DNA of 64,000 nucleotides from positions 16,110 through 80,109 of the forward strand of contig NW_003122411.1 in NCBI RefSeq assembly GCF_000003605.2. The letters are read 5' to 3'. Of this stretch, positions 5,160-64,000 are shown piece by piece. This DNA is from Saccoglossus kowalevskii. Lineage: Eukaryota; Hemichordata; Enteropneusta; Harrimaniidae. The notes beneath the pieces were generated by a model. The model searched no databases and was not told the origin of the DNA. It saw only the letters and a program-made list of their open reading frames with translations. Position numbers and translations under genes: made by a program. Positions within the stretch are counted from its first letter, which is position 1. Each line of letters opens with the position of its first letter.

Positions 5160-5909
5160 ACAAACAAGCAGCCTCTCGGCTGAGATAGCTCCGCTGTTAG
5201 CAATGCACGTTTCAATTAAAGAACAGAAGATATCATTAGAAAATGAACAATATGCATAATATCAACGCAATGGGATATGCTGTTTTCAACAAGAATTCAA
5301 AAATATAATTTTTGACCATAAATGATTGTGGTTTTCAACAAGAAGAAAATATCACTTTTTACCAAAAATGACAAAAATATTCATCAAAATTAGAGAATTG
5401 AAGATATCATCATGAAATGAACAAATTTGAGAGTGGTCCATATGTAGTATCTATATATGTAATATCAAAGCAATTGGACTTGCGGTTTTTAACAAAAGGT
5501 CGAAAATATCACTTTTTACCAAAAATGACAAAAATATTCACCAAAATTAGAGAATTGAAGATATCATTACAAAATGAACAAATCTGAGTAAGATACACAT
5601 GTAGTACCTATATATCTAATATCAAAGCAATTGGACTTGCGGTTTTTAACAAGAAGTCGAAAATATCACCTTTTACCAAAAATGACAAAACTATTCACCA
5701 AAATTAGAGAATTGAAGATATGATCATGAAATGAACAAATCTGAAAGAGGTCTACCCAAGGTACATATACACCAAGTATCAAAGCATTCAAGCTTGTAGT
5801 TTTCAAGAAGAAGTCGAAAAAGTAAAACTTTGACACGGACGACGGACACCGGACGACGGACAATCACTCATATGATAAGCTCCGCTCGACAAAGTCGACA
5901 GCGGAGCTA
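5160..5909 (+). mobile_element. Pearl / Helentron-associated-like tandem-core element, copy 2
   Basis: The left end shares acaaacaagcagcctctcgg and TAGCTCCGCTGTTAGC with copy 4, so the boundary is defined by comparison. The core has a disordered first part (5215-5400), then units near 5436, 5588 and the terminal unit near 5750, then a short (GACGG)-type tract and the hairpin ending ggagcta. TAGCTCCGCTGT at the left is the reverse complement of ACAGCGGAGCTA at the right, giving about 12-bp subterminal inverted repeats. It looks like a whole non-autonomous copy with an internally scrambled core. Confidence 0.72.
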
Positions 5910-14941: not shown

Positions 14942-15763
14942 AATGTGTGATGTAGAAATGACGTCCAATGTGTGATGTAGAAATGATGTCCAATGTGTGA
15001 TGTAGAAATGACGTCCAATGTGTGATGTAGAAATGACGTCCAATGTGTGATGTAGAAATGACGTCCAATGTGTGATGTAGAAATGACGTCCAATGTGTGA
15101 TGTAGAAATGATGTCCAATGTGTGATGTAGAAATGATGTCCAATGTGTGATGTACAAATGACATCCAATGTGTGATGTACAAATGATGTCCAATGTGTGA
15201 TGTAGAAATGATGTCCAATGTGTGATGTACAAATGATGTCCAATGTGTGATGTAGAAATGATGTCCAATGTGTGATGTAGAAATGATGTCCAATGGGTGA
15301 TGTACAAATGACGTCCAATGGGTGATGTACAAATGACGTCCAATGTGTGATGTACAAATGACGTCCAATGTGTGATGTACAAATGACGTCCAATGGGTGA
15401 TGTACAAATGACGTCCAATGTGTGATGTACAAATGACGTCCAATGTGTGATGTACAAATGACGTCCAATGGGTGATGTACAAATGACGTCCAATGTGTGA
15501 TGTACAAATGACGTCCAATGTGTGATGTACAAATGACGTCCAATGTGTGATGTACAAATGACGTCCAATGTGTGATGTACAAATGACGTCCAATGTGTGA
15601 TGTACAAATGATGTCCAATGTGTGATGTACAAATTATGTCCAATGTGTGATGTACAAATGACGTCCAATGTGTGATGTACAAATGATGTCCAATGTGTGA
15701 TGTACAAATGACGTCCAAAGTGTGATGTACAAATGACGTCCAATGTGTGATGTACAAATGACG
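14942..15763. repeat. 25-bp satellite, about 33 units
   Basis: The unit is aatgtgtgatgtacaaatga followed by cgtcc. There are two main variants: gtaGaaatg dominates the left third, gtaCaaatg the right two thirds, with alternation in between. A second marker (aatgGgtgatg) occurs at about 15295, 15320, 15395 and 15470, that is with 75-bp spacing in part of the array, hinting at a three-unit higher-order repeat. Because 25 is not a multiple of three and the unit has no stop in one direction, all three minus-strand frames stay open for 230-312 codons; these are not genes. Each consensus unit carries TGACGTC, close to a CRE/ATF site. Confidence 0.95.
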
Positions 15764-16700: not shown

Positions 16701-16905
16701 GAACATTGACACCCCCCCCCCCCCGAAAACAGACCCTTAACTACGGTTAGCGCCCTCATAGTCATACATTAACTATTAGTTCACTGCCTGTTTGGGGTCC
16801 TGATACAGGCCTCAGACTTTTACTAGAACATTGACCCCCCCCCCCTCCCAACAGGGCATTAACTACGGTTAACGTCCTCATAGTTGTTTTTTAACTATCA
16901 GTAAA
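16701..16905. repeat. Duplicated poly-C module, period about 125 bp
   Basis: Two copies start gaacattgac, run into C13 or C11, and continue ttaactacggtta.cg.cctcatag, starting at 16701 and 16826. The copies differ by point changes and C-tract length, so the duplication is not very recent. Confidence 0.75.
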
Positions 16906-25200: not shown

Positions 25201-25928
25201 AAAAGTTAACGTAGACAATAGTGATGGACAATCTCTCGTATGAGCTGGAAAACTTTGTGGCAGCTGTATGTAGTCAAAATATCTGTCACACCTTCGAGAG
25301 AGTAAAGATAATGAAATTCCGTCTTCACGAAGAGTATCAAATTATTGAATCATAAAAAATGATAGCAATAAAAAAAAAATTGCTTCCATCTTACAGCCGC
25401 CTACTTCTAACTAGAAATAAAATTCCATCATGCATATCTCATTTACAGGTGTTCATTATAGCTTTCTTCAAAAGGTTAAAATAATTAATCAACTCAATAT
25501 GCATGTTCCGCATGAGTACTATAGTGGTTTTATTTTATGTACACTTCAGTGATCTATATAGATAAATATATAAAAGAAATTGTTTATTTTATAGTCCTGA
25601 CAGAAACGACCGAAATTTTCGGAAAGATAGCATGAGAGGGACGTTTGCACATGATTCAATTAATAGTATGATCTATTTCAACTTGAAACGCTACAATGAT
25701 TTGCTATATATCACATGTCATGAATTATTCATCCACGCTAACCGGTCAAGTACACATATATACATCATTAAAGTAATTAATTAATTAAAGAAATTAAACG
25801 AGCACATTTTTTTCAACTGATTAGCAGTTGTTGAAGATCAACATATTAAGTATTACTGGGTATTAATCTTTTTCTTTAATATCTGATGTTGTTCCGCTTT
25901 CGATATTGTCAGCTGGGATACTGTAAAA
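25201..25928. other. Non-coding stretch
   Basis: AT-rich sequence. Its right end (actgtaaaatcatttattttc) resembles the terminal repeat of MITE family A. Confidence 0.45.
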
Positions 25929-26097: not shown

Positions 26098-26653
26098 TCA
26101 TTTATTTTCACTTTTTTGATGTTTTGAACAATTTCACTGGGTTTTAATTTCACAAACTTGCAAAAAAAAAAATGAGTTCTGTTATCATTCTACATGTTCA
26201 TGTGTATTTAATTAAATTAGCAAATTTAACGAAAATAGCGAAATTAATAATACAACGAATAATTAATGTGTTTACAGTATTATCTATACAACATGACGAG
26301 AAGAAGAAAAAACAAGATTATAGTGGTTTCAGAAATCTGTCACATCTATGTACACTTTAGTTTCACACCTACCAGAGTGCCACCCGGCCGTTATCGTAGT
26401 GCTCTAGTTTTTTTGGGAAGCAACAAATATAGAGACGCATATATCAGACTAGTACTTGACAACGTAAATAAACTGACATGTATGTAGGTCAAACTCTGAG
26501 AGCTGAATAAAGAAGATTGATATATGTGCATGTCCGGAAGGAATTATTCTTAGAATGTTTATAGTAAGATGAATCCGGATTTGTTTGATGCGCATACAAA
26601 TATTGAACAGACAGAAAATTTTTTTTTAAATCACATTCAGGTTAAATTTGATA

Positions 26654-26846
26654 TACTGTGGAATACTTTATTTTCGCTGGATTTAATTTTCACTGAAAAG
26701 GCTTTTTGAGCGTTTTGCTTGGAATTTATTTTCACTGATTTTTGATGAGATTAATGTAAAATATAGCAAAAAATGTATATTCACCGGATTTTATTTTCAC
26801 GGAATCATCCTTTCAGCGAAAATAGCGAAAATAAAATCCAAGCGAT
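26654..26846. mobile_element. Palindromic MITE family A, copy 1 (right end eroded)
   Basis: Begins tactgtggaatactttattttcgctgg and has the family's inner ttattttcactgatttttga. The right arm ctttcagcgaaaatagcgaaaa follows, but the terminal tattttacagta is lost. Non-coding. Confidence 0.65.
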
Positions 26847-27026
26847 AATGATATTTGACTATTTTTTTTGTATTCATCATCAATGAAATGGCATTCATTA
26901 TTCTGGTAACCATGGTTTTGCACTTTCTTTGTAGCAATTATTTATGGTAGTTTTCGGAAAAGTTTGCATCATATCCAGAACATAGCAAAAGTATCACAAC
27001 CTTGCCAATTGGTGCAGGAGGTCACA

Positions 27027-27229: not shown

Positions 27230-28752
27230 TTAGATTATGTGTTTATCAATTAAACTGGTAATAATCTGACTCTGAAGATATAAAAAATAAATAAATGCTG
27301 AGGTAATGAAACTAGTATGATGACACCTTGATAGCAGGTAAGCTGAAGAGCATATCACCATGGGACAAACATGAGAATCCCGGGCAGCGCGTGAATTCAG
27401 CCAATAAACACAGTACAAAGTAAGAGCAACATTAATCATGCACCAATCACTAGAGGTCAATAGAGGGTACTGGAGAACATAACTAATAGCACTTAATAAA
27501 TACAAGTTACTAGTACATTTTTTTTTTTTTTTTTTTTCAGTTTTTGGAAAAGTTGTTCACAAAGCATTCAATTGAAAAAAAAATCCATTACAATACAGTA
27601 CACCCATACATTACACATTGTTTGTGTGCTTGTAAGCGTCTTTGTGATTCTATATGCAGTTGGTGTTACAAGACGAAATGAGGTAAAGTAAAAAGAAGTC
27701 ACACTTCAATAGCATACCATTCAAAGATATTTATTAGTTCAGAAATGAAGAGGGGTTATGTTTCTTTGAGAGCTTTACAAAGTAGGCCAGGACCGCAAAG
27801 CAAAATCACTATTTTTTTTAAGATACATGTATTGAGCTCATAATAGGCTTGTTAAAGTAAAAAAAAAGTGCAAAACCTGTCCTCAACTACAAGTCGGCCA
27901 TATTTGATGGACTTCTCACACATATCAACAGTCATGAGCACAGTCTCTCCACAAACTTTTTACTGTTGAGACATGTATTCCTAAGACAGCTACAAGATTT
28001 TTAACTTGACTTCATTAACTAAACCAAATCAAAATGCGAATTGAAATTGCTATATTTGACAAATCCCCAATTTAATTTGAATATTTGTTTCTAATATTAA
28101 AACACTGTCAAAAACAGGAAATTAAAAGTACCCGGTAATATGAAATCCTACATAATTTAGCTTGTAGCCAGAATGAAAAAAATGTTTTAATATTTCCTTC
28201 AGTGCTTCCTATACCAGCAATGTTCCAATTGCTTTCTTGAAAAACCCATCAGTTTAAGAGGAAATTACTTGCCTGGGTAACCATGACAATACAGCTTATA
28301 TCACTATGCAGGGAAATACATGTATAATATTATTTCACGAAATTGTCCACAGTGAGGGAAATCAATAAGGAGGAAGGTCAAATGACCAGTTACTGTACAG
28401 ATAAACTTCGATATATAAAATCTCAAGAAATTCTAAGAATACCTAACATGACAGTCAGGAAATGCATTACACAACTTATGATTTTACGCAAGAGTCTACT
28501 GATGACAGACGGACGATTACAATTACATGTATGTCAATGATTAAACATGTTTCTGTCTCTGTGTCACAAAATTTAAGACATTAACAAAAAGAAAGAAACA
28601 TGACCCTCTTCATACACACATATGAAAAATGAATACCTGACTCCACATAAGGGTACACATATATTGTACATTCAAATTTGTAATATTAATAAATAAAACA
28701 AATAAATGAAATTTATACATCGTTCCATATATACAAGAAATTACATATATTA
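27230..28752. other. Non-coding stretch
   Basis: AT-rich. It includes a T-run at about 27518-27538 and an X-box-like GTAACCATGACAAT at 28277-28290. No exon recognised. Confidence 0.45.
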
Positions 28753-28989
28753 TTAAACCTTTTCACCACCAGTCCCTCTTTTCATCACAAAATAGTCCTG
28801 TTTACAGTCTGCAGTTTCCTTCAGTACACTGGGACAAAAATAGCAAAATGTATTGAGTAGAAACTGAAAATCAACTCAAATTTTGTCTGTTGGCTCCAAA
28901 ATTAGAGTTCATTTCCAAATATATTGAAGAATATAAGAAAAAAAGTGCAGACAAATTTGGCGAGAAAGTCCAGTGGTGAAAAGGTTAAA
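28753..28989. mobile_element. MITE family B with TTAA-type ends
   Basis: Inverted termini AACCTTTTCACCAC and GTGGTGAAAAGGTT enclose about 205 bp of non-coding DNA. TTAA sits at both outer edges, which would fit the TTAA target duplication of piggyBac-type transposons. This superfamily call is inference. A decayed copy is at 2708-2936, and shorter look-alikes with TTAACCT..AGGATTAA ends occur at 47204-47397. Confidence 0.65.
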
Positions 28990-32467: not shown

Positions 32468-32940
32468 NNNNNNNNNNNNNNNNNNNNNNNNNNNNNNNNN
32501 NNNNNNNNNNNNNNNNNNNNNNNNNNNNNNNNNNNNNNNNNNNNNNNNNNNNNNNNNNNNNNNNNNNNNNNNNNNNNNNNNNNNNNNNNNNNNNNNNNNN
32601 NNNNNNNNNNNNNNNNNNNNNNNNNNNNNNNNNNNNNNNNNNNNNNNNNNNNNNNNNNNNNNNNNNNNNNNNNNNNNNNNNNNNNNNNNNNNNNNNNNNN
32701 NNNNNNNNNNNNNNNNNNNNNNNNNNNNNNNNNNNNNNNNNNNNNNNNNNNNNNNNNNNNNNNNNNNNNNNNNNNNNNNNNNNNNNNNNNNNNNNNNNNN
32801 NNNNNNNNNNNNNNNNNNNNNNNNNNNNNNNNNNNNNNNNNNNNNNNNNNNNNNNNNNNNNNNNNNNNNNNNNNNNNNNNNNNNNNNNNNNNNNNNNNNN
32901 NNNNNNNNNNNNNNNNNNNNNNNNNNNNNNNNNNNNNNNN
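32468..32940. other. Assembly gap (473 Ns) with duplicated edges
   Basis: The 89 bases before the gap (32379-32467) and the 85 bases after it (32941-33025) are the same sequence. They differ only by four single-base deletions, each in a homopolymer of two or more. This is what unmerged overlapping contig ends look like, so the gap and the duplication may both be artefacts. Long frames that cross the Ns are meaningless. Confidence 0.9.
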
Positions 32941-33639: not shown

Positions 33640-34520
33640 ACAAACAAGCAGCCTGTCGGCTGAGATAGCTCCGCTGTTAGCAATGCACATGGCAATTAAA
33701 GAACAGAAGATATCATTAGAAAATGAACAAATCTGAGAGAGGTCCACATGTAGTACCTATATGTATAATATATCAAAGCAATTGGACTTGCGGTTTTTAA
33801 CAAGAAGTCGAAAATATCACTTTTTACCAAAAATGACAAAAATATTTACCAAAATTAGAGAATTGAAGATATCATTACAAAATGAACAAATCTGAGAGAG
33901 GTCCACATGTAGTACCTATAAATGTTATATCAAAGCAATTGAACTTGCGGTTTTTAACAAGAAGTCAAAAATATCACTTTTTACCAAAAATGACAAAAAT
34001 ATTCACCAAAATTAGAAAATTGAAGATATCATTATGAAATGAACAAATCTGAGAGTGGTCCACATGTAGTACCTATATATGTGATATCAAAGCAATTGGA
34101 CTTGCGGTTTTCAACAAGAAGTCGAAAATATCACTTTTTACCAAAAATTACAAAAATATTCACCAAAATTAGAGAATTAAAGATATCATTACAAAATGAA
34201 CAAATCTGAGAGAGGTCCACATGTAGTACCTATATATGTAATATCAAAGCAATTGGATCTGCGTTTTTTAACAAGAAGTTGAAAATATCACTTTTTACCA
34301 AAAATGACAAAAATATTCACCAAAATTAGAGAATTGAAGATATCATCATGAAATGTACAAACCTAAGAGAGGTCTACCCAAGGTACATATACACCAAGTA
34401 TCAAAGCATTCAGGCTTGTAGTTTTCAAGAAGAAGTCAAAAAAGTAAAACATTGACACGGATGACGACGGACAATCACTCATATGATAAGCTCCGTTCGA
34501 CAAAGTCGACAGTGGAGCTA
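33640..34520 (+). mobile_element. Pearl / Helentron-associated-like element, copy 4 (most complete)
   Basis: The left terminus is acaaacaagcagcctgtcgg followed by gatagctccgctgttagc. Core units start at about 33741, 33900, 34057 and 34214, with the diverged terminal unit at 34371, a period of 157-159 bp. A short gacgacgg tract and the 3' hairpin close it at ggagcta. There is no protein-coding capacity, so it would depend on an autonomous partner elsewhere. This is the best copy for defining the element's ends. Confidence 0.75.
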
Positions 34521-44252: not shown

Positions 44253-44464
44253 TACTGTGAAATACTTTATTTTAGCTGGAATTAATTTTCGCTGAAAAGA
44301 CTTTTTGGGTGTTTTGTGTGGAATTTATTTTCACTGATTTTTGACGAGTTGAAGGTAAAATATAGGAAAAAAGGTATATTTACTAGATTTTACTTTCACT
44401 GAATCATTCCTTCAGCAAAAATAGCGAAAATTAATTCCAAGTGAAAATAAAGTATTTTACAGTA
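44253..44464. mobile_element. Palindromic MITE family A, copy 3 (best ends)
   Basis: Starts tactgtgaaatactttatttt and ends aaagtattttacagta, with inverted arms of about 45-50 bp containing ggaattaattttcgctgaa and its complement. The loop carries gtgttttgtgtggaatttat. Non-coding, 212 bp. Confidence 0.75.
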
Positions 44465-48505: not shown

Positions 48506-48565
48506 CTTATTCGCAATCCCTTTGCGAACATCGCTGACCTGTGACAGTTCCAAAACTTGACCATC
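48506..48565 (-). CDS. PLCB4: Phospholipase C-beta, third coding exon (PH domain, continued)
   Basis: The minus strand shows acceptor ttcttacag|GATGG and donor AATAAG|gtaaaag around 60 nt, or 20 codons: DGQVLELSQVSDVRKGIANK. From memory the norpA segment is DGDVIELCQVSDIRAGGTPK and the PLCB4 segment is [20 protein letters not shown]. About 12 of 20 positions are identical to norpA, including the QVSD core and the R-x-G. In human PLCB4 an exon also ends at this lysine, so gene structure agrees. The next exon should begin near DPKI(L/V); I could not find it between here and position 1. The phase-0 end leaves room for a microexon of whole codons (see 7375-7383). Confidence 0.9.
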
Positions 48566-48986
48566 CTGTAAGAATAGAAAAAAAAATTAAATATAATACC
48601 TCTATTAGGAGACAATAAGACATCTAAATAAAAAGGAATAGAGAAAAACTCCTGTGGACCTAAATAATAACATTTTTTGTTAAGTGTTCAGCAGGTGATC
48701 AGAGTGTGTTATTACAGTGACAAAAACAATACAAATCAATTAATTTGTCAGCCAATCATATCTCAGGTACACAGCAGCTACTGGAGGAAAATTTGACCCT
48801 GATACTAAAGCCGAGGCATGCGATAAAAGGTCAAAGATCAGAGTCAGAGAAATGTACCATATCAAAACAATTACAAATGGTGAATGATGTTTCAGTTCTG
48901 AATGTCTCCGGTGAATGAACAGTATACTAGTAAACAAATTATTTACGCAAGGGGAAAAAACTCAATGGACAGCTTATGTAATTTGT

Positions 48987-49174
48987 AATTGGACGTGACA
49001 AAATTGACGACATTTAAGTTTTGATGATCCGGCATGGATGTGTATTTATGAACTGGATGTAATAAAGTTGACGGCATATAAGATTTGACGATCTAGCATG
49101 GATGTATTTGTATGAATTGGACGTGATAAATTTGAAGACACCAAAAATTAGACGATTTGGCACAATAATTTATA
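48987..49174. repeat. 64-bp tandem repeat, about 2.9 units
   Basis: Units begin aattggacgtgacaaaattg (48987), aactggatgtaataaagttg (49051) and aattggacgtgataaatttg (49115), exactly 64 bp apart and moderately diverged. It lies inside a PLC-beta intron. Confidence 0.85.
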
Positions 49175-50009
49175 AATACAAAAAAAAATGTATTTATTGT
49201 TTACAGGATAGTGATCAGTTTGGATTTAAAATTCAGCATTGGTGTAGTGGAAATGGCAATGCAGTGTTACATAGGCTATGTTGGCGACAAAATACATTAT
49301 GATTTCACAAAAACTAAAAATGTAGATTTTGCATCACACTATATATGTATAATAATCGTTTATTGAAAAATGAAAAACACTGCTACGGATGTGTACGTGG
49401 TAAAATAATCAGCGTACATGTACATGCGTAGAATGGTGATTTTTAATTTTTTAGTTAAACCATTACTCAGCTGCATGTTCAATGAATAGCGTTCTTAGTT
49501 GACAATAAATCATAATCCAATGTTTTTATCAAACTACAGCATCCAACAGCAGTATTACATGTTTTCATCCATATTGAATCAGCATTTTTTGAAAACATAG
49601 ACACACTGCTTTTCTGGCAATGAAATATTTGTTTCTTCTTTTCATAAATAATTCCTCTTTGCTAATAAGATTACTGTGTTTTTTTTCTGACTATAATCAC
49701 TTCAGTTAGTCAGTGTTGAGTCTGCTTAAGTAAATTAACATGCAAATGTCACAAAACCCAGCTAAGTGACTATATTTTGATTGACAGATGAAGGAGAGGT
49801 TTTGACAAGTATTGTCTGCAAATATGCCATATAACTCAGATTATGAAGACTGATAGGGATTGAAACATACAAGATCAGATCGATACGGCTCTAGGTTCAT
49901 CTTACCACAATGCCGAGGATAATTCTCACCTATGTTTGTTTGAATGTTGACCTACTAGGTAATTGTAAAGGGCATATGCCTGTCTTAGGGTGTAACGATT
50001 TTATTACCA

Positions 50010-50470
50010 AAATGGCTGCCAGTTGGCCAAATTCAATCAGATCAAAAAAAATAAAATTAGAGGTAACCCTTCAGATATGTATTCTGTGATATAGCATCTG
50101 TGTACCAACTTTGAATTTGTTATTGTATGCCACAGAAACGAATATAGGGAGAGATGAAAAATGGCTGTTAGTCGGCCATCTTGAACCTGAACTAATATGC
50201 ACCTGTAAAGTATTGTCACCATATCAAGTTTAATTTAAATTGTCCAAGTCATCGATAAGAACCAATTGCGAAGTACCGGTATTATTATGATTTCGACCAA
50301 ATTTACGTCTGGTAAAAAAAAAAATTGGCAGCCAGTCAGCCATAATTGATTGTATCAAAAACAAAATTGATGTGCATACTTATGACAGCAGGTATTGGCT
50401 TTGTACCAAGTTTGAATGAAATGGCTCTTGACAGACACACAGATGGAACACAGATTGATAAATCTCAGTT
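50010..50470. repeat. 'ggccatc' dispersed repeat, about three degenerate units
   Basis: Units start aaaatggctgccagttggcc (about 50010), aaatggctgttagtcggcca (about 50158) and attggcagccagtcagccat (about 50324), with ~150-165 bp spacing. They also contain gtaccaagtttgaatgaaat-like tails. The organisation parallels the tandem core of the pearl-like elements, but the sequence is different. Confidence 0.6.
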
Positions 50471-53382
50471 TTTGAACTACCGTAATAGTAAAACAGGAAC
50501 TAATAAAAAATCTCAACTAAGTCATCCTGTCATAATTGGTAATCTCTAAACTGAAATGCACTTTCGTGTATAAAATTCATAACCAGGGAAACATGATAAA
50601 TACTCTTCTCTGCGTCTTGATCCAATTTATGCATTAGTTCACAACTGGCATAGTTTATATAAAAGTGACAAAAAACAGGTCATTGGAAAAATGAAGGACG
50701 CAATACAGATTTTTTTTCGTCAATTTTTGTGTTTTATCAGTAGAACATTCTAATCTACACAATATACATTTGTACATGTACATACATTAATATTTAATTA
50801 TGTAAATGAAGCAAAAATATTTGCATTGTAATAATAAGTAACAAAGTATGTAATACCCTGGTACAACACAAATCATCTGAATTGAATTACCCCCCCCCCA
50901 CACACACCCCCCCCCCAAACCAAATAAAGCATGCCATTTCAAACTTCTCATTTTAACTTGACTATTTATCTGATGTTGACTGCTAATGGTTGTAAATTTA
51001 TTATTTTAACATATGACTAATAGGTGAAAAAAAAACACCTCTTCCTGTGACAGTAACAGTCCGAAGTAAACAAATATTCAGCTGCGTTACCAGGATATAC
51101 GTCACAAGGTATTAAAACACTAATTCCAGCAACTAATTGGACTCACAGAAAAATAAAATGGAAACACAGGGGTTCACTAACTTAAAAGGTTTCATTCAAG
51201 GGTTACAAAGAGGATTGCGTGTAAATTATTCAAAAATCTAACGATACATTGAATGTATTTTGACTCATGAAGGCAATTAAGGTAATCTAAAAACGCACCA
51301 CCGATGCAAATTAAGGAATTGCTGGAGAGTGCTTTCTATGAAAATTCTAATAGGGAAAAACACTCAGCCATCATTGAAAAGCCCAAAAAATGTGTTTTAC
51401 TCAAAAATAGAATAAAAACTCTACTGCTCAGAATCATTTTCTACAATCTACAAAATGCTGAATAGTATAACAATTATTAAATTGACCTCTGTTCCTAGTG
51501 GAGTGGGGCAATCGCAGATTTCATCACGTCACTAAAATGTGAATATGCGCTATGAAATCAACGACCTTAAATGTCACACAAGTTCAGGACAATTTGTGAA
51601 TATGCATTTCAAAATCGATGACCTTTAAGGAGAAACTGTCACACTAGTCCAAGAGAGAAATGTCAGAAACATGGTAGATTTAATAACTACAATAACGGAA
51701 ATGTGTATTAATTTAACAGGTTCTGATATGTCATTTAGTGTTATATAACATGCAAAGGTTGTTTAATTAATACCTTAAAATACTTCACTTTTGGAGTTCA
51801 AATAAAAAATTACTAAATGAATAAGCTATCTACAAATACGCAGCTACTTTTTGTGTTTGATATATGGAACTGGTAATCACACTATTATCCTAGTGACCCT
51901 AAAATGTGTGTGAATACACTCTGTGGTGCCCCTGAGAAGTAGATGGAGTGAAAACTGACCATAATTAAATAACCCTTTTGGGTATAATCAGGTTTAAATT
52001 TGGTCACACTATAAATATCACTATTACCCCTATTGGGTGCGTTGTAATATCGCCCCCATTGGGTGCAGGGGGTGGGTGGGATATCACCCACATACAGGAA
52101 TATATGACTGTGTGTCCAATCCTATTATTTAAGTACAAACAGTGACTGTCTGAGCTCCATTCTAAGTACTGGGTATCTTTACAAACTGAGTACTTGATAC
52201 AAAGTGAGCAAAAAATTATACACGTAACTGTAGTAAGCATCAGGAACTTGATCTCCAAAGGATCAAGAGAAAAAAAATGGCAGACATTATGTTTTTATAT
52301 AAAATGCCCTCGCTATTACAAGAGTATACAGAATTTGGAGGGGGATTAATAGCAATGGTAATTTGACAAATATATTTCAATATACATGTTCATTTCAGCT
52401 TAAAAATAACTGAGCCATGCATGGAACCACTGAAACAGTCTGTCTGTCTGATAACTGCCGATCCACAAAAGATGGCGGCGTATATATATATATTGAACAC
52501 ATATTATTAGTAAGGTAAAAAAATTCACAAACCACTTAAAAGACAAATTAAAATTGTGTGGTGTTATCGTTGAGGATTGTCAATAGCCAGCATAGGTCAA
52601 TTGTATTTGATTATATTTTAATATTTAATAGAATAGCAAATTTCATTAATTATATCTGTATCTGAATGCTACGTATGAGAAAAGGCGGCAGCTTAGTATG
52701 TATTTTAGCAATCTCGTTTCAATCGATGACACTGTTTCGATAACATGTTTTAATCATGGAACACAATTTTTAGCTTAAAAGCCATGAATAACAAAACAGT
52801 AATCATGTCCGTTTCACTTATTTATGGTAATGACTGTTGTTTATACGGGACAGTGTCACCTTTCAATAAGGTAATTAAACTCAGATAATATGATAATCAT
52901 GCTGTCTCATGATGTGTGATATTTAAAGTACAGTCACCTCTGCATTTCGTACTTCTAATGTATTGTAAATAAAATTGTTTAGCACAATGCATAAATAATA
53001 AAATAATAAAAATATATAATAAAATATTTCTATCCAGGTGAATGTACATGTACAATTGCATCACCATAGTGTAGGGTTTCAGGGTAATTTAAGCACCCCT
53101 ATGTTAGCGTAATAATATTTAATTTAACAATTTTTGCTCAAAATATATGTATGTACGAAATTAAAAAGGATAAAATATATTCAAATAATATTTTTTCACA
53201 TAAAGTCATATTAAAACATCACAAGTTGAGGCAAGTTGATATTATTTCAAATTATGTTTTTGAAAATATTTTTTACAAGGCAAAGGTAATATTAATGAAT
53301 TGCCACTCAACACTTACACAGATACATAGATGTAAGTCCAGGTTAATGTAAATGGTGGTACGGTAAGTTGAGGTAATCCATT

Positions 53383-53396
53383 GTTGCCATGACAAT
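53383..53396. promoter_or_regulatory. X-box-like site in PLC-beta intron 2
   Basis: GTTGCCATGACAAT differs from the RFX palindrome GTTGCCATGGCAAC at two positions. Motif-only evidence. Confidence 0.25.
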
Positions 53397-54273
53397 GTGT
53401 GAAAATTGAGAATTTATAATGGCTGTTTTTCAAATTTTAAAACCTTTGAAGCTGGAGGGGGTTTTTTAAAGCCGAAACAAATGGAAAAAAAATGACATGA
53501 TCATCAATGTGTTAATTGAGCACTCATTTTTGGTCTGTTTTATTTTCATACTTATCATGTTTATTTTCAGGTATGCATAATATTTAAAATAACAATGACC
53601 ACTTAGACAAATTCCATTACCATAGTAGCAGGAGTTACTATTTAATTTTTCTAGGTATGATTATAAATACCCTGAGTATTTATAATCATATTCAGAAAAT
53701 TAAATGGATTAAATAACTATGCAAATAATGTTATGATCATGCTTTATCAATTATTTTTAATCTGTGATACCACATACAGAAATGTGTCATATTTTGTAAT
53801 GTTGTGTGTTGCAACTTTCGCATTAGATAACTAAAAATTATACAGTTTAGCTTTTGGTGCTTACACTTGGTTATTACTCATCATCGGAACATCATCCTTT
53901 ATTGCTATGACAACATAGGACAACCAAATTTAATAAAATATAAAATCTTGCCCCAAAACCTAAAAACGGTAAATTCATAGAATAATTCATGATGATGTAT
54001 TCGCAGACAGAGGTTTCCCTGTCACAATTTGACATAAATAGTATGGTTCAAGATTTATTTTTAGTTGTTAAAAAGACTTCACTCTATTGAGCTTATTATT
54101 GAACCTATATATATACGGTCTGAAATAATTTTTTTTTAAAAGAAACAGGTACATCAAAATAAAAATATTTATAAATAGAAATTTTACAGCATAATAACAA
54201 ATATTCAATCACCGCATTAAAACAAGACTAAAATTTTGTAGGTCCTATTTAAAAAGATAAATTTGTTGAATTG

Positions 54274-54298
54274 GAGGGAGGGAGGGAGGGAGGGAGGA
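54274..54298. repeat. (GGGA)n microsatellite
   Basis: About six GGGA units, 40 bases from the donor of the second PLC-beta exon, on the intron side. On the transcribed minus-strand sense it is pyrimidine-rich (TCCC)n. Confidence 0.92.
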
Positions 54299-54337
54299 AA
54301 ATTGGTGGAGCACAAAAATAAGGAAAAATACACTTAC

Positions 54338-54418
54338 TCTTGCTTCACTTTTCCACCTAATAAAGAAGCTCTGCTCGTCGACTTGGTAGAGACACTGCGC
54401 TTCCACCGAACATGTATC
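54338..54418 (-). CDS. PLCB4: Phospholipase C-beta, second coding exon (start of PH domain)
   Basis: The minus strand shows acceptor aatttcag|GATACATG and donor AGCAAGA|gtaagtg around 81 nt, exactly 27 codons with no stop. The peptide begins DTCSVEAQCLYQVDE and ends FFIRWKSEAR. This fits the first PH-domain strands of PLCB4 and norpA, where remembered sequences read ..[20 protein letters not shown] and ..ALFKVDEYGFFLYWKSEGRD. Conserved points are L-[FY]-x-V-D-E, FF, the tryptophan and K/R-S-E. The GF usually found before FF is replaced by QS, a small oddity. Phase 0 at both ends joins the flanking exons without adjustment. The intron to the first exon is about 3.2 kb, and the one to the third is about 5.8 kb. 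Confidence 0.9.
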
Positions 54419-57400
54419 CTGAAATTAGAAATTTTAAGCCAATTTAAAAAAATAATATTTTGAATAATTAATTGACAGAGTGGTTTGTGATGGGGTAGAA
54501 AAACAACAACGAGGCAATAATGCTATTTGCTAAATATTAATTTATTTCAATTTCTTGTTTAATGATGAGATGTATCATTCATAGCAGACTATATTTCAGG
54601 GGAAAACTAGGTCACGTTGGCATTTACTGAATTTATTCCATTTCCTTTACATACCGTAGAATGGGAAATTATTCCCTTGCGTTTTGATATTTTCAATTTT
54701 GTAGTTTGCATACATCGATAGTGTTCATCAGGTTCACTGGGTTTTAATATCGTGCATTTAGCGATCAACGGAAATAAAAGCAAGCTAATAAGTAATACGT
54801 TTCTAAATTATTGATTTTTTTAAGTTTGAAAATAAAATGAACCTGATTACCAGCACAATACTTTTACTTTTTGCACATCTTTGTACACAAGCACACATAT
54901 AAATAGTAATAAGTTCTTCTGCATAATCAACGCATGTTTATGACAAATACTGGAGTTTTATTAAATAGCAACGCTGGCTCATTTTCACAATGACATAAAA
55001 AAAAATTGGACAACGTGATTACAGGACCAGAAAAATGACAGAAATGCCAAATTTATATATAACGTGATTACGCCATATTATAAACTGATGCCCTAATTTC
55101 ATAATATTGTCCAATCAAAAAATGCTTTCAGTTGAAGTCATTATTTTTTTTTTTTACAATTGCTTTTCTAATGGCTTGGATGGATTGGATTACTAGTATT
55201 AATGGTTAACTCAATTCTTCCTCTAGTTAACCCATAAAGAAAACATTATAGTGTCTTATCTGCAGTGGAGTCCTGATATTACTATCATGCAATATTTATT
55301 AGGGATGACCATGAAACAGCTAATTTTCTACTGCTTATTGATTCAGTGGTGAATGACATACTGCACGCCCACGCTAAGTAAAAGCACGGCTCAACCATCC
55401 CAGGGATTGCACTAGTGCATCATAAAAAAAAACGTTATTTGCCCATTGTTTGCTATGTATACAAATGTTCCCGAAAGTGTTAATCCTGCCGGCTAATGTA
55501 TTACGTACTCCATGTCTACCTTGAAAGGGGTATTATCACTAACTGTTCGGACTCACGCTTAGACCTGAACAAACCAGTGATTGACAGATTTGAAGATTCG
55601 TATGGTTGTTTAAAACGTGACTTCTCGTCAGATTTCAGGTTTAAATCTTGATTGCCAAACTAGTAACGTTGAAATTGTACATATATTCAAAATTCATACA
55701 ATGGAATATTTAATAAAGTACTCCATACATCCTGGTTATCAAAAAGAATAATTTTATGAAGCACTCAGAACAGATACATCACCATCGTGTTCCATTTGAA
55801 TACTGAAATCTATTTAACACACATACACACCCCCACACCCGGGGGGTGTGCCTTACAGACTGGTGGACCAAAGCACTGGAATATTGTCATTATTCCAATT
55901 TGCATAATCACATATTATATTTTCTTTATGTAATGTGTTATGTGTGTCTATGGTCAAAACCACCTACGTCATATTTTTTATGACTTAGTATGCGAGAAAT
56001 TTTGGTTGGAGTGCAATTCTATTGGAGAAAATACTCCGTTAGAGAATAATAATATTTTCAGCAAAAATATTTATGTTAAAACACAAACATGAAATGAACA
56101 ATAATTTTTTTTTTATTTATAAATATGGAAGGTAAATTTTATTTATTATTTGATATAATACCAGGAATATTATAAACATTTTTTTTTGCTAAAAAAATAC
56201 ATTTTTAAGGTATATGAGTAGAAAAGCAGCAATAACATAGAGAGTGATTGCTTCCTCTGTTACAATAACTGTAAAGATGGGGATCCTGTTTCATGGACCT
56301 TTTTTTTAGAACTAGCTCAAATTTCATAAATTATTCCAACTATCACTCAGTTAAATAAATCACAATTGTCAATGTTATGATGGAGATAGTAGAATTAAAT
56401 AGCACTCTTCATCATTGGGACATTAGTCGGGAAACCAATTGCATTTAGAAAAACAAATATAAAACAAATTAAAGATTATAATTTGAGAAAACCATCCATA
56501 CTGGGCGATTTATAAATACATATGTGCTGGCACAATGACATATTTGTTTCAAGAACCTTTCATTCGATTGTAAAGTGAAAAATGCAGCACCCACTGTGAG
56601 TGTGACTTTCCAACAAGGCTTAGTGCGAAATATGTACATTGTATATACTACACAGATTGTAAATTACTTTATTTTCTCCTGGAATTCATTCCTTCATTGG
56701 AAATAAATTAATAAATAAATCTATAATTTACACTCAGCTCATCAAAAATCAGTGATATTAATTAAACTCCATACAAATCAAATCAAATTAAATTAAATCA
56801 AACTCCATATAAAACAGTCAGTTTTTAGCAAAAATTAATTCCAGCTATTATCAAGTCTGGGCAAACTTTGTCATTTAGGAAGGGGGCAAGTGGGTCAAGG
56901 TCATGCCAATGATATCTCACTCCATGATGTCATTAGAAAGCTGCTGTTACAACTACCTAATAAAGGAATAAGCTAAATATAAACTCAAAGTGTCATCATC
57001 ATTGGCTTAACATTTGGAATGACATTGACAGTCGGCCAGCATAATGTTGGACCAGGGAATCAGCATTGGCCAGCCCAGCCAATCATAAAATGTCATATTG
57101 TTTTGTTTTTTTAAATTTTTGCAAGAAACAATAGCACGGCATGAGGTCTTACTGATAAATATCATTTTCTGTAATTCAATTATGTGCAATATCGGGTAAA
57201 TTCAATGAGCTGCTACTAACATTGCATATCCTTGAATTTGGATAGTACATCTCAAATAGATTCTGACATGATAACATATTTGGTTATTTGGCCTTGTCAT
57301 TATTTAGAATGACTAAGGGGTTGTTCATTTGAAAATCCGGGGGTGGGCTGCAAGAATTTGTTTTGTTTTATTGCAAATTTTTTAAACACATTTATTTTGA

Positions 57401-57640
57401 ACACTAGACATCAATTTGTTTATTTATACAAATTCTTTTGCATTACACATTCACATTTGTTGTCTTCACCCAGGGGCACATTAGTTTTCACTAACCCCCC
57501 CCCCCACCCCTCACCCCCTTTTTTCAAATGGGGAACCCCTAATTATCTTTGTAGATTAAATATTTAAATTTAAAAAAATGCCTTAAAATAATATTTCAAT
57601 ATTTACTTAAAGGAAAAGGAAGAGTGTGATTAAAAGTTAC
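54419..57640 (-). other. PLC-beta intron 1 (between first and second coding exons)
   Basis: Bounded by the donor at 57640 and the acceptor at 54419. Mostly AT-rich sequence. It includes a diverged MITE relic (56653-56850) and a C11 run near 57495-57505. No coding segment is recognised. Confidence 0.8.
56653..56850. mobile_element. Diverged MITE family A relic
   Basis: gattgtaaattactttattttctcctggaa at the left, atcaaaaatcagtgatatta in the middle and agcaaaaattaattccagct at the right follow the family A order. The middle is expanded by an aaatcaaattaa-type repeat. Confidence 0.45.
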
Positions 57641-57724
57641 CTCATCCCAGCGATCAAAATATGCACCATTCCTCAGATGATCCGGCACGTTTATCTGCCA
57701 TTGAAAGTCGTATAATTTTGCCAT
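57641..57724 (-). CDS. PLCB4: Phospholipase C-beta (PLCB4/norpA type), first coding exon
   Basis: Read on the minus strand, the ATG at 57724 opens 28 codons beginning MAKLYDFQWQ and ending AYFDRWDE, followed at once by a donor, GAG|gtaact. From memory, vertebrate PLCB4 starts MAKPYEFNWQ and continues to AVFDRYEE at the same distance, so both the start and the exon end match the family. PLC-beta enzymes hydrolyse PIP2 to IP3 and diacylglycerol at the plasma membrane when activated by Gq. The PLCB4/norpA branch serves rhabdomeric phototransduction in flies and neuronal signalling in vertebrates. The exon ends in phase 0 and joins the exon at 54338-54418. Sequence just upstream of the ATG contains candidate acceptors for a spliced 5' leader. 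Family assignment is strong because the next two exons agree; the exact orthologue name is inferred. Confidence 0.92.
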
Positions 57725-58893
57725 GCTTGAATATACTCCAGCTCAAATAGTTCCTTATATTGCCGATTCTGCTTAATCCAATTGCATATGCGTGAGCTTG
57801 ACAAGAATTTAAGATAAATAAAAAAAAATTGCAACAACAATCGAAAAAGAATAAGAAATGTGTATGAATAATCCAAGGTATTCTGCAGCTAGTAGATATC
57901 AAGGTGGTGGTGGTGATGGCTGTTAAAGTGACATCTAATTCCAAATTGATACAGAAGATGGTGTGAGTGATCACAACACTTTGGGTAAATCTTGATGTTT
58001 TGAGGGTTAGAGATGAAAAGACACATCTAAATAATCGCTCTTGATACTTGTTCTTGAATTATTACGTGTATACCATACACAGTCCGTGTAAATACAATCG
58101 TCAAGGTGGTATTGTTGTGGTGAAGATCCTTGTGCTTGCTGCAGTTAGGGGGGGGATGCTTGACGGAACCTTGGAACTTGCCCCAGGGGTTGTGTGCCCT
58201 CAAGCTACACTGCACAGTGAATTCCAACGCTTTACCCTCCCATTCACAGGGATTTGTCTTATAATATACCTGGCGTCGTCTCTGTAGCAGTACTTAGGTG
58301 GTGAACACACACGGGCGAGTGACAAATATCGACCTTGGCCACTCGCGCAGGGCAGTCCTAGATCGACTTTAATATTGGATGCCCCAGATCGAACTCACTA
58401 GACTGATCTGTCGACAAAACAAAACAACGATGTTAATACAAAAATTAGAAATATTGCCACACGCCATAAATCAAGATAAATCGTGTCACTGCACAATAAA
58501 ATAACACCCAGTGATATGGTAAATTTATAAATGTCGGAAGAGAGAGAGAGAGCAAAAAATCTACCGTAACATGACATGTTATTGTACGGAAACGGCTATC
58601 AAAAATAAACAGCAGTTGGCAACCTGTTTTTGCTGGCGACAGACGTTATGGGAAAATTGCATAATTCGTACACTAGGAAATCTTCAAATACTGATCGTCA
58701 CAGCTCTCGATAGAATCTCTCTAAGCGAATCAATAAGTATGGATAGACAACCTGCAGGCGAGCTACAGATTTGCGTCGACTCGACGATGGAACGGCAAAG
58801 GGGCCGGGTAGAGCGAACCGGGCGATAATTCGGAGCGCCCCTGTCACTGATCATTGGCGGAAATCACGCTATAATATTCATCATTAGACGTAC
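57725..58893 (-). other. 5' leader intron of PLC-beta, plus the last leader bases before the ATG
   Basis: This is the stretch between the proposed leader exon and the first coding exon. The 50 bases next to the ATG are probably 5' untranslated exon. The rest shows no coding match. It contains a G8 run at 58148-58155, the only G-run of eight or more that I saw on the plus strand, and an AG microsatellite near 58543-58552. An 85-codon plus-strand frame at 58571-58828 has no recognisable domain and overlaps the CpG-richer interval, so I do not call it. Confidence 0.35.
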
Positions 58894-60384: not shown

Positions 60385-60980
60385 ATTTAATGATAAATAA
60401 ATTGAACAGAGTTGGACTCAAGTTATAACCTTTTTGGGCCCACGTGTTTTAATGAAATGAGTCTGTTAATCCGCCATTGATTTTCACTTTTACTTTACTT
60501 TACATACTTTTCATTATAATGGTGTGCATATCACCTGTATTCATATATTTTAATCATTTCATAAACATGCATTCGTGTCGGACACTGTCAAAAGCCTTGC
60601 CCGGATTCACAAACATGCATATAGTATACATGCATACTTTGTCTGCTTATAGTATTTAATGTTCGCTCTTTCAGAAACTCACTTTTATACCACAGTCTCT
60701 CAGGGACTAGTACTAGTACTTTTCAATGTGAATACATTTTCAGTTGCTTGACAACCTTTTCTAAAGCAATGCGCATACTGTGTTTTTCCATAAAATGCTG
60801 TTATCGTGTAAGAATGTTGTTATCTCTTGATTCAATATATTTAGTACTCGTCTAGTAAACAGTTTACCCAGACAGATGAATAAGACTATACCTCTGTAAT
60901 TTGAGAGGTTTATTTTGTTTAAATTGGCCCTAAAACCTGAAATCCATGATTGTGGGAAATTGTGTGATTTGTATTTATAT
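60385..60980 (-). mobile_element. Decayed LINE (non-LTR retrotransposon) reverse-transcriptase fragment
   Basis: The minus strand shows, in the right order, FPQSW (60944-60958), NYRGI (60887-60901) with CLGKLFT just after it, then DNSIL, KAFDSV (60581-60598) and NLSPTLFNLFI (60392-60424). These are the fingers and palm motifs of LINE reverse transcriptases of the jockey/CR1-like groups. One frame is open for roughly 60 codons around NYRGI. The later motifs are in other frames with stops between, so it is dead. Neither the YADD box nor the endonuclease part was recognised. The full extent is probably larger, perhaps 59900-61400. Confidence 0.8.
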
Positions 60981-61989
60981 ATTGAAAGAGTTTATATAAT
61001 ACGCCTATGGGAAGTATTTACCATATTTAACAATTTTATTGGATAATTTATCTTTTTTTTCATGTGTTTATTTTTTATTTAATTTCGTTTTTTTAGGATT
61101 GGTCCAATAATGTCGGTGTTGTTGATCGCGTTGTGTTCCTACTCTTTTTAGCTAATGAGTGATATTATTTGTTAAGAACAGTCTTATCTGTTTTATCATT
61201 TCAAGGTGGATTTAATAATAATTATCAAAAATGTTAACCACTCATTAGGTGCTATTAAATATTTCTGTTTGTTTACGCAATGTGTCATTGTTCAGAAGAT
61301 ACAGCATTACCCGAGGCACCACAACTGTTCTATCGACTTCTCTGAAATATGGGTTATATCTTTTATTTTAAAGTGTTGACGATATTGCGTAATATATTTG
61401 TGCTTCTACCCGATTGGAGAGTGCCAAGTGAACTTTCCCAGTGAATTCTCGACAGTACGGATGTTTAAACTGAGCAGACTACTGTCAAAACAAAGTTTAA
61501 TTAAATTTTTGAAACAACATCGAAACTGTTTTTACGGAAGTTATCGTCAATTTCGTCATCTAGATTAAGTTAGAGTTTTTAATTTTCGTCGTTGTGTCAA
61601 TAAAGCTGCCGAATATTTGTAATGTCAGTTTCCAAAATCTTTAATTTTATATACTAGCGAATTTCGAACTCATTCGCGCAACTTACCACCAGCGTTCCAT
61701 ATACCAATAAGCACGGTTAACTGTTGATTAAATTTAGACATCCAACAAAAAAACAAAAAAAGTATGTTGCCCGTAACTTTAATTCTGTTAATTGTCAGTT
61801 GCACATCAATTTGGGCATGGTTTTGCAAAAGTGGGCTTGGCTTCTGAAATATTGGCATGGTCATTTTTGTAGCTCGATATTTTCGTAACTCCGTGTCCGT
61901 AACTCGAACAATTCAGTATCTCCTCTGTGAATCAGTGATAGAGGGGTGGTATACATCGTATTTAAGCAACTTTTTTTTTGTTTCTCTAT

Positions 61990-63426: not shown

Positions 63427-64000
63427 AGGCCTTAAAGTGGGCTATCATGCAGTTTCTTTTAACATGGGTCGTTAGGATACAATAACATGCAGTGTGAGGC
63501 GACGGTTTAAGTACCGAATGTTTTTTTTGTTCATAATGCTATAATGCAATGCATTCACACACAGTATAATAATAGTTTATTACGGAACTGTAATCTGCTG
63601 TGGATACAGTAAGGTAAAAATAGTGTAAAATAAAGCGACTAAAATAACTACAAATTTAAAAGTTCTAATAACTACAAAACATCAGAAAGTAATGAAAATA
63701 CATTAAATAAATCAAAGTAAAGGTAAAGGTTCTCCCTACCCAGGTTTACACAGGCGGTGCTTTGTATAATGCTAAAATGTCTACCATGGGCTATCATGCA
63801 AAGTCAACCACGGTTGGATATTCATGGCCAAATTACAAGCTAAAAGAGAGGCTGCCACCATTAAGGTGGAAAATGTAACCCCCTCTCTTGATTCCTGTAC
63901 ACTAGCCTCATCCACCACACACCTACCATCTCAACATGCTAGAAGTTCGCACATATTTGTCACGTGCACAGAGGTGATGGAACATGACCTTCATAAACAG
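63427..64000. other. Non-coding stretch to the window end
   Basis: Contains scattered GCTATAATGC-like words, otherwise no recognised feature. Confidence 0.4.

Follow-up and report, generated by a model that had tools for sequence, protein, structure and literature searches.

Does this locus hold the beginning of a signalling gene and, if so, where is the remainder of that gene? The stretch analysed here (the window) comprises 64,000 nucleotides of Saccoglossus kowalevskii, taken from contig NW_003122411.1, called C1493 below (C1493:16110-80109). A first-pass annotation, made from the letters of the sequence, had placed in it a phospholipase C-beta (PLC-beta) gene of the PLCB4/norpA class, spelled by three tiny exons on the minus strand. 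We regard these as coding exons 1-3 of the only PLCB4/norpA orthologue found in the genome, a gene that would be split between C1493 (minus strand) and a second contig, C223 (plus strand). We give this reading a probability of about 92%.

Three coding exons on the minus strand

The exons and the intervals that separate them are as follows (window coordinates).

57641..57724, minus strand: coding exon 1, 84 nt, phase 0, ATG start, residues 1-28, donor GTAACT
54419..57640, minus strand: intron 1, 3222 nt, GT...AG, borders read from the sequence, splicing predicted
54338..54418, minus strand: coding exon 2, 81 nt, phase 0, residues 29-55, acceptor ATTTCAG, donor GTAAGT
48566..54337, minus strand: intron 2, 5772 nt, GT...AG, borders read from the sequence, splicing predicted
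48506..48565, minus strand: coding exon 3, 60 nt, phase 0, residues 56-75, acceptor TCTTACAG, donor GTAAAA
1..48505, minus strand: presumed part of intron 3, which would span this region, exon 4 being placed on another contig

Reading of the sequence confirmed exactly the lengths, phase and consensus splice borders that had been proposed: AG precedes exons 2 and 3, and GT follows each of the three exons. Minus-strand translation of the joined exons (225 nt) gives 75 residues with zero stops, and a TGA lies in frame 7 codons 5' of the ATG of exon 1. None of the 12 open reading frames (ORFs) of at least 100 amino acids in the window encodes exons 1-3, in agreement with the earlier statement that no exon stands out as an ORF; the ORF at 57654-57974 overlaps exon 1 in a different frame. 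Small first exons and long introns are usual in animal genes. The description of the gene as hidden holds for an ORF listing, but not for annotation based on spliced proteins or RNA-seq, which normally picks up such exons.

The 75 residues matched Pfam PH_14, the PH domain of PLC-betas, over profile positions 2-62 of 131 (65.9 bits against a cut-off of 22.7 bits, expectation value (E) 4.1e-18). The top matches in PDB were the squid PLC-beta entries 3qr1 (E 1.6e-6) and 3qr0 (E 2.5e-5), followed by PLCB3 and PLCB2; T-cell receptor chains, cofilins and dUTPase gave weaker matches (E of at least 0.006). An NCBIfam search with the 75 residues returned just two matches, both sub-threshold, and Rfam (at gathering scores) and ARAGORN reported nothing in the window.

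Three short open stretches might also have been chosen by chance for their resemblance to PLC-beta, and each exon is indeed short on its own. All six-frame fragments of at least 14 amino acids in the whole window were scored with a small PLC-beta profile, built from four sequences, two of which were not database records. Exons 1, 2 and 3 took ranks 1, 2 and 3 among the 3128 fragments, in this sequence and all on one strand (28.3, 16.5 and 8.9 bits, compared to 5.4 bits for the fragment at rank 4). The score of exon 3 alone is only 8.9 bits, a point in favour of chance, but the best fragment in 20 Markov-randomised windows scored 5.9 bits and 0/20 of them reached the value of this weakest exon. 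Exon 1 was matched by tblastn with the PLCB4 probe (E 1.2e-5). The ranking, the PH_14 match of the joined exons (E 4e-18) and the exact continuation of exon 3 on C223 (see below) effectively refute a chance origin of the three exons, the probability of which we consider negligible.

Comparison of the joined 75 residues with PLCB4 and norpA, the check proposed by the first-pass annotation, gave 49% identity to each of the two probe sequences (71 columns for PLCB4, 80 for norpA), compared to 34% for squid 3qr0 and 36% for PLCB3. Three small trees with five outside sequences, three of them not database records, each showed a split with 100% support. The one made from the 75 residues separates PLCB1, PLCB3 and squid PLC-beta from a group of PLCB4, norpA and the window peptide (100% ultrafast bootstrap); the branching order inside this last group had just 31% support. 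The PLCB4 probe matched PDB 6ird over residues 912-1175 (E 2.6e-147), other PLC-beta entries matching as well, and is therefore reliable at least over residues 912-1175. The PLC chains found in PDB were those of squid PLC-beta, PLCB3 and PLCB2, with no PLCB4 chain among them, as might be expected of a PLC-beta of the PLCB1/PLC21C class. This assignment is very improbable in view of the identities, the split in the trees and the presence of a separate PLCB1-class gene upstream on the same contig. The PH_14 match, the identities and the tree split support the class named in the first-pass annotation: the 75 residues would make up the N-terminus of a PLCB4/norpA-type PLC-beta together with roughly the first half of its PH domain.

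Proposed continuation of the gene on a second contig

Exon 4 was sought within positions 1-48505 of the window by tblastn with the PLCB4 and norpA probes, with the small profile and by acceptor-anchored alignment, and nothing convincing was found; the best minus-strand score in the anchored alignment was 31, compared to 38 for the best plus-strand control. The one AG-D-P-K-like start, at 16799, was considered as exon 4 and rejected, as a stop follows after 7 codons. A run of 473 N lies at 32468-32940, within the presumed intron 3.

The genome searched comprises 572 Mb in 4830 contigs. No second copy of exons 1-3 was found in it with the 75 residues, all three matches (three candidates) being those in the window. 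The PH_14 search gave one match (four candidates) at C223:12666-12839, covering profile positions 57-115, and a PLCB1-4-like EF-hand model found one place in the genome (three candidates), also on C223. The search for X domains gave 18 matches on 8 contigs, and loci from 6 of the 8 were compared. On the plus strand of C223, of which 59,500 of 120,746 bases were examined (C223:1-59500), ordered exons match the PLCB4 probe between residues 75 and 991, the linker and the region ahead of the C-terminal domain showing gaps; residues 914-991 are matched by two stretches. Exons 1-3 were not found in these 59,500 bases (best match of the 75 residues 18.5 bits, E 2.1). Exon 4 (C223:12696-12836, plus strand) directly follows an AG, is in phase 0 and begins with residue 76. 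Its phase matches the requirement, because exon 3 ends in phase 0.

The 3 window exons and 19 homology-guided exons of C223 were joined into a model of 850 residues with no stop. The first-pass annotation was right about the class, but the three exons that it presented as the gene are only the first three of at least 22 coding exons in this model. PH_14 is matched continuously by the joined model (2-131 of 131, 122.6 bits, E 1.2e-35), compared to 65.9 bits for the window exons alone. The subsequent Pfam domains, all from C223, are EFh (E 2.1e-25), X (E 1.9e-58), Y (E 2.1e-40) and C2 (E 1.6e-9). SSHNTYL and ITHG, the catalytic histidine motifs of PLC-beta, are both present in the C223 part. The identity of the model was 61% and 67% to PLCB4 (two pieces), 57% to norpA, 45% to PLCB1 and 45% to squid PLC-beta. 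A weak linker block (C223:23198-23302) was excluded from the model; the first exon of a tandem pair described below was entered with its acceptor at 25447, its start being 25416 in a reading by eye.

Several points weigh against a single gene split over two contigs. The joined protein is a model and not a transcript: homology guided the choice of its splice sites, the beginning of exon 4 was placed by hand, and most of the X/Y linker is omitted. The sequences used as probes for PLCB4, PLCB1 and norpA were not database records. In C223:1-59500, a stretch with N runs, nothing was found of the C-terminal part past residue 991 of the PLCB4 probe, and the Pfam scan of the joined model gave no C-terminal PLC-beta domain; the long C-terminal coiled-coil domain of PLC-beta is needed for the Gq response. 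The facing contig ends (the low side of C1493 beyond the window, and C223) are N in part, so that their adjacency is presumed. Finally, the genome searches can miss PLC-beta exons: PH_14 and the EF-hand model each reached only C223 despite a second PLC-beta in the genome. This second PLC-beta perhaps escaped both searches as its 5' half lies in N, and the single match therefore does not prove a single gene.

The unreadable joining intron and the demonstrable losses of the genome searches are also what would favour another explanation, in which exons 1-3 begin another PLC-beta4 copy, separate or decayed (a pseudogene or a broken duplicate), and the gene on C223 has its own first exons, unassembled or unread. 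Against it, the genome-wide searches found one set of exons 1-3 (3/3 candidates) and a single PH_14 remainder (one match among four candidates). Each of the three exons has an open frame and sound splice borders, and the fit of phase is exact. We consider a separate copy unlikely, although less so than chance or the PLCB1/PLC21C class.

Under the preferred reading of one split orthologue, both pieces would be transcribed as a single unit across an intron 3 that measures 77.3 kb or more, and the gene would be expressed and would work like other PLC-betas. If the contigs abut at these ends, the minimum length of intron 3 would be 48,505 + 16,109 + 12,695 = 77,309 nt. According to the established mechanism of the family, Gq-GTP would bind and activate the enzyme at the membrane, and the X/Y barrel would cleave phosphatidylinositol bisphosphate (PIP2) into inositol trisphosphate and diacylglycerol. 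In fly photoreceptors, cleavage of PIP2 by PLC-beta is the step that signals light (phototransduction).

Animals have a PLCB4/norpA gene, and the gene of the window is an ordinary, expected orthologue, hardly surprising to a specialist. Gene models should probably unite exons 1-3 of C1493 with the exons from 4 on that lie on C223; annotation of C223 alone would yield a PLC-beta without its N-terminus. The window exons are of little import alone, and the PLCB1-class neighbour and the duplicated exon of the Y half are the more interesting leads (old linkage and isoforms, respectively).

A PLCB1-class neighbour, a tandem exon pair and repeats

Exons of the 3' half of the second PLC-beta lie upstream on the same strand (C1493:113967-108139; loci L012, L020 and L021). 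Coiled-coil matches of the PLCB4 probe reach as far as 95384, with E values of 3e-5 and 4e-4; neither was reported by the PLCB1 probe. Over the end of Y and C2, its identity was 69% to PLCB1, 65% to PLCB4, 65% to squid PLC-beta, 63% to PLCB3 and 63% to norpA, and in the corresponding tree it fell with PLCB1, PLCB3 and squid at 100% support, its exact position having 57%. A C-terminal-like coiled-coil exon of this upstream gene (L012:5412-5660, minus strand) gave no match to a Pfam PLC family, and none above the cut-off. The PLCB1-class gene and the PLCB4 gene follow each other head to tail in this order; the distance between 95384 and the PLCB4 start codon (C1493:73833) is 21.6 kb.

Human PLCB1 and PLCB4 share the locus 20p12, with a similar orientation. 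The upstream PLCB1-class exons and the PLCB4 exons may represent an ancient linkage like that of the human genes. Both human genes are named near one 20p12.3 variant in one report (PMC12031715). Among the open-access literature matches listed, covering titles and the starts of abstracts, none dealt with PLCB1-PLCB4 linkage, with the exon structure of PLCB4/norpA or with mutually exclusive exons of PLCB4.

Two tandem exons on C223 (25416-25572, 157 nt, and 25690-25834, 145 nt; L016) each encode a version of the beginning of the Y half, with 33 of 51 aligned columns identical. Both lengths are 1 mod 3, so including both shifts the frame; the two exons are predicted to be mutually exclusive in splicing. 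Third positions agree in just 17/39 of the last codons, and the pair is therefore more likely to be an old duplication than an assembly copy. norpA has alternative exons where its PH domain draws to a close; the exon at that position was not found a second time in C223:12837-15921. On balance we lean towards a combined proposal, in which the head-to-tail pair of PLCB1-class and PLCB4 genes would descend from an early bilaterian ancestor and the PLCB4 gene would carry two mutually exclusive exons that encode the beginning of its catalytic Y half.

Repeats were also observed in the window. Three tandem arrays with a 157-bp unit are located at 1-321, 5326-5820 and 33694-34374, and similar sequence is present at C223:16435-16657. 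A 25-bp minisatellite with approximately 33 copies (96% matches) occupies 14942-15763; in each of the three minus frames it opens long ORFs that overlap one another and are probably repeat artefacts. Dispersed repeats of approximately 200 bp (2709-2924, 28752-28989, 26653-26849 and 44253-44464), common to the window and C223 at 79-91% identity, are perhaps small mobile elements. The fragments at 60764-60991 (minus strand) and 63776-64000 (plus strand, continuing into L011) resemble reverse transcriptase and retroelement protease by eye, an impression to which no Pfam match lends support.

Comparison with known PLC-betas

The window peptide resembles human PLCB4 (the probe sequence) in its N-terminus (MAK-), in the start of PH_14 and in the 49% identity over 71 residues, and the joined 850-residue model continues this likeness in both aligned pieces (61% and 67%). 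By contrast, the gene would here be split over two scaffolds. The tandem exons that encode the beginning of the Y half were noted on C223. Drosophila NorpA, also represented by the probe sequence, shares 49% identity over 80 aligned columns and the common pattern QVSD-R-G, and is 57% identical to the joined model; it differs by 5 extra residues in the aligned part. Squid PLC-beta (3qr0/3qr1) shares the start of the PH domain and provided the best PDB matches (E 1.6e-6 and 2.5e-5), but its identity is only 34% and it groups with PLCB1 and PLCB3. The head-to-tail order of the PLCB1-class and PLCB4 genes recalls the human pair at 20p12.

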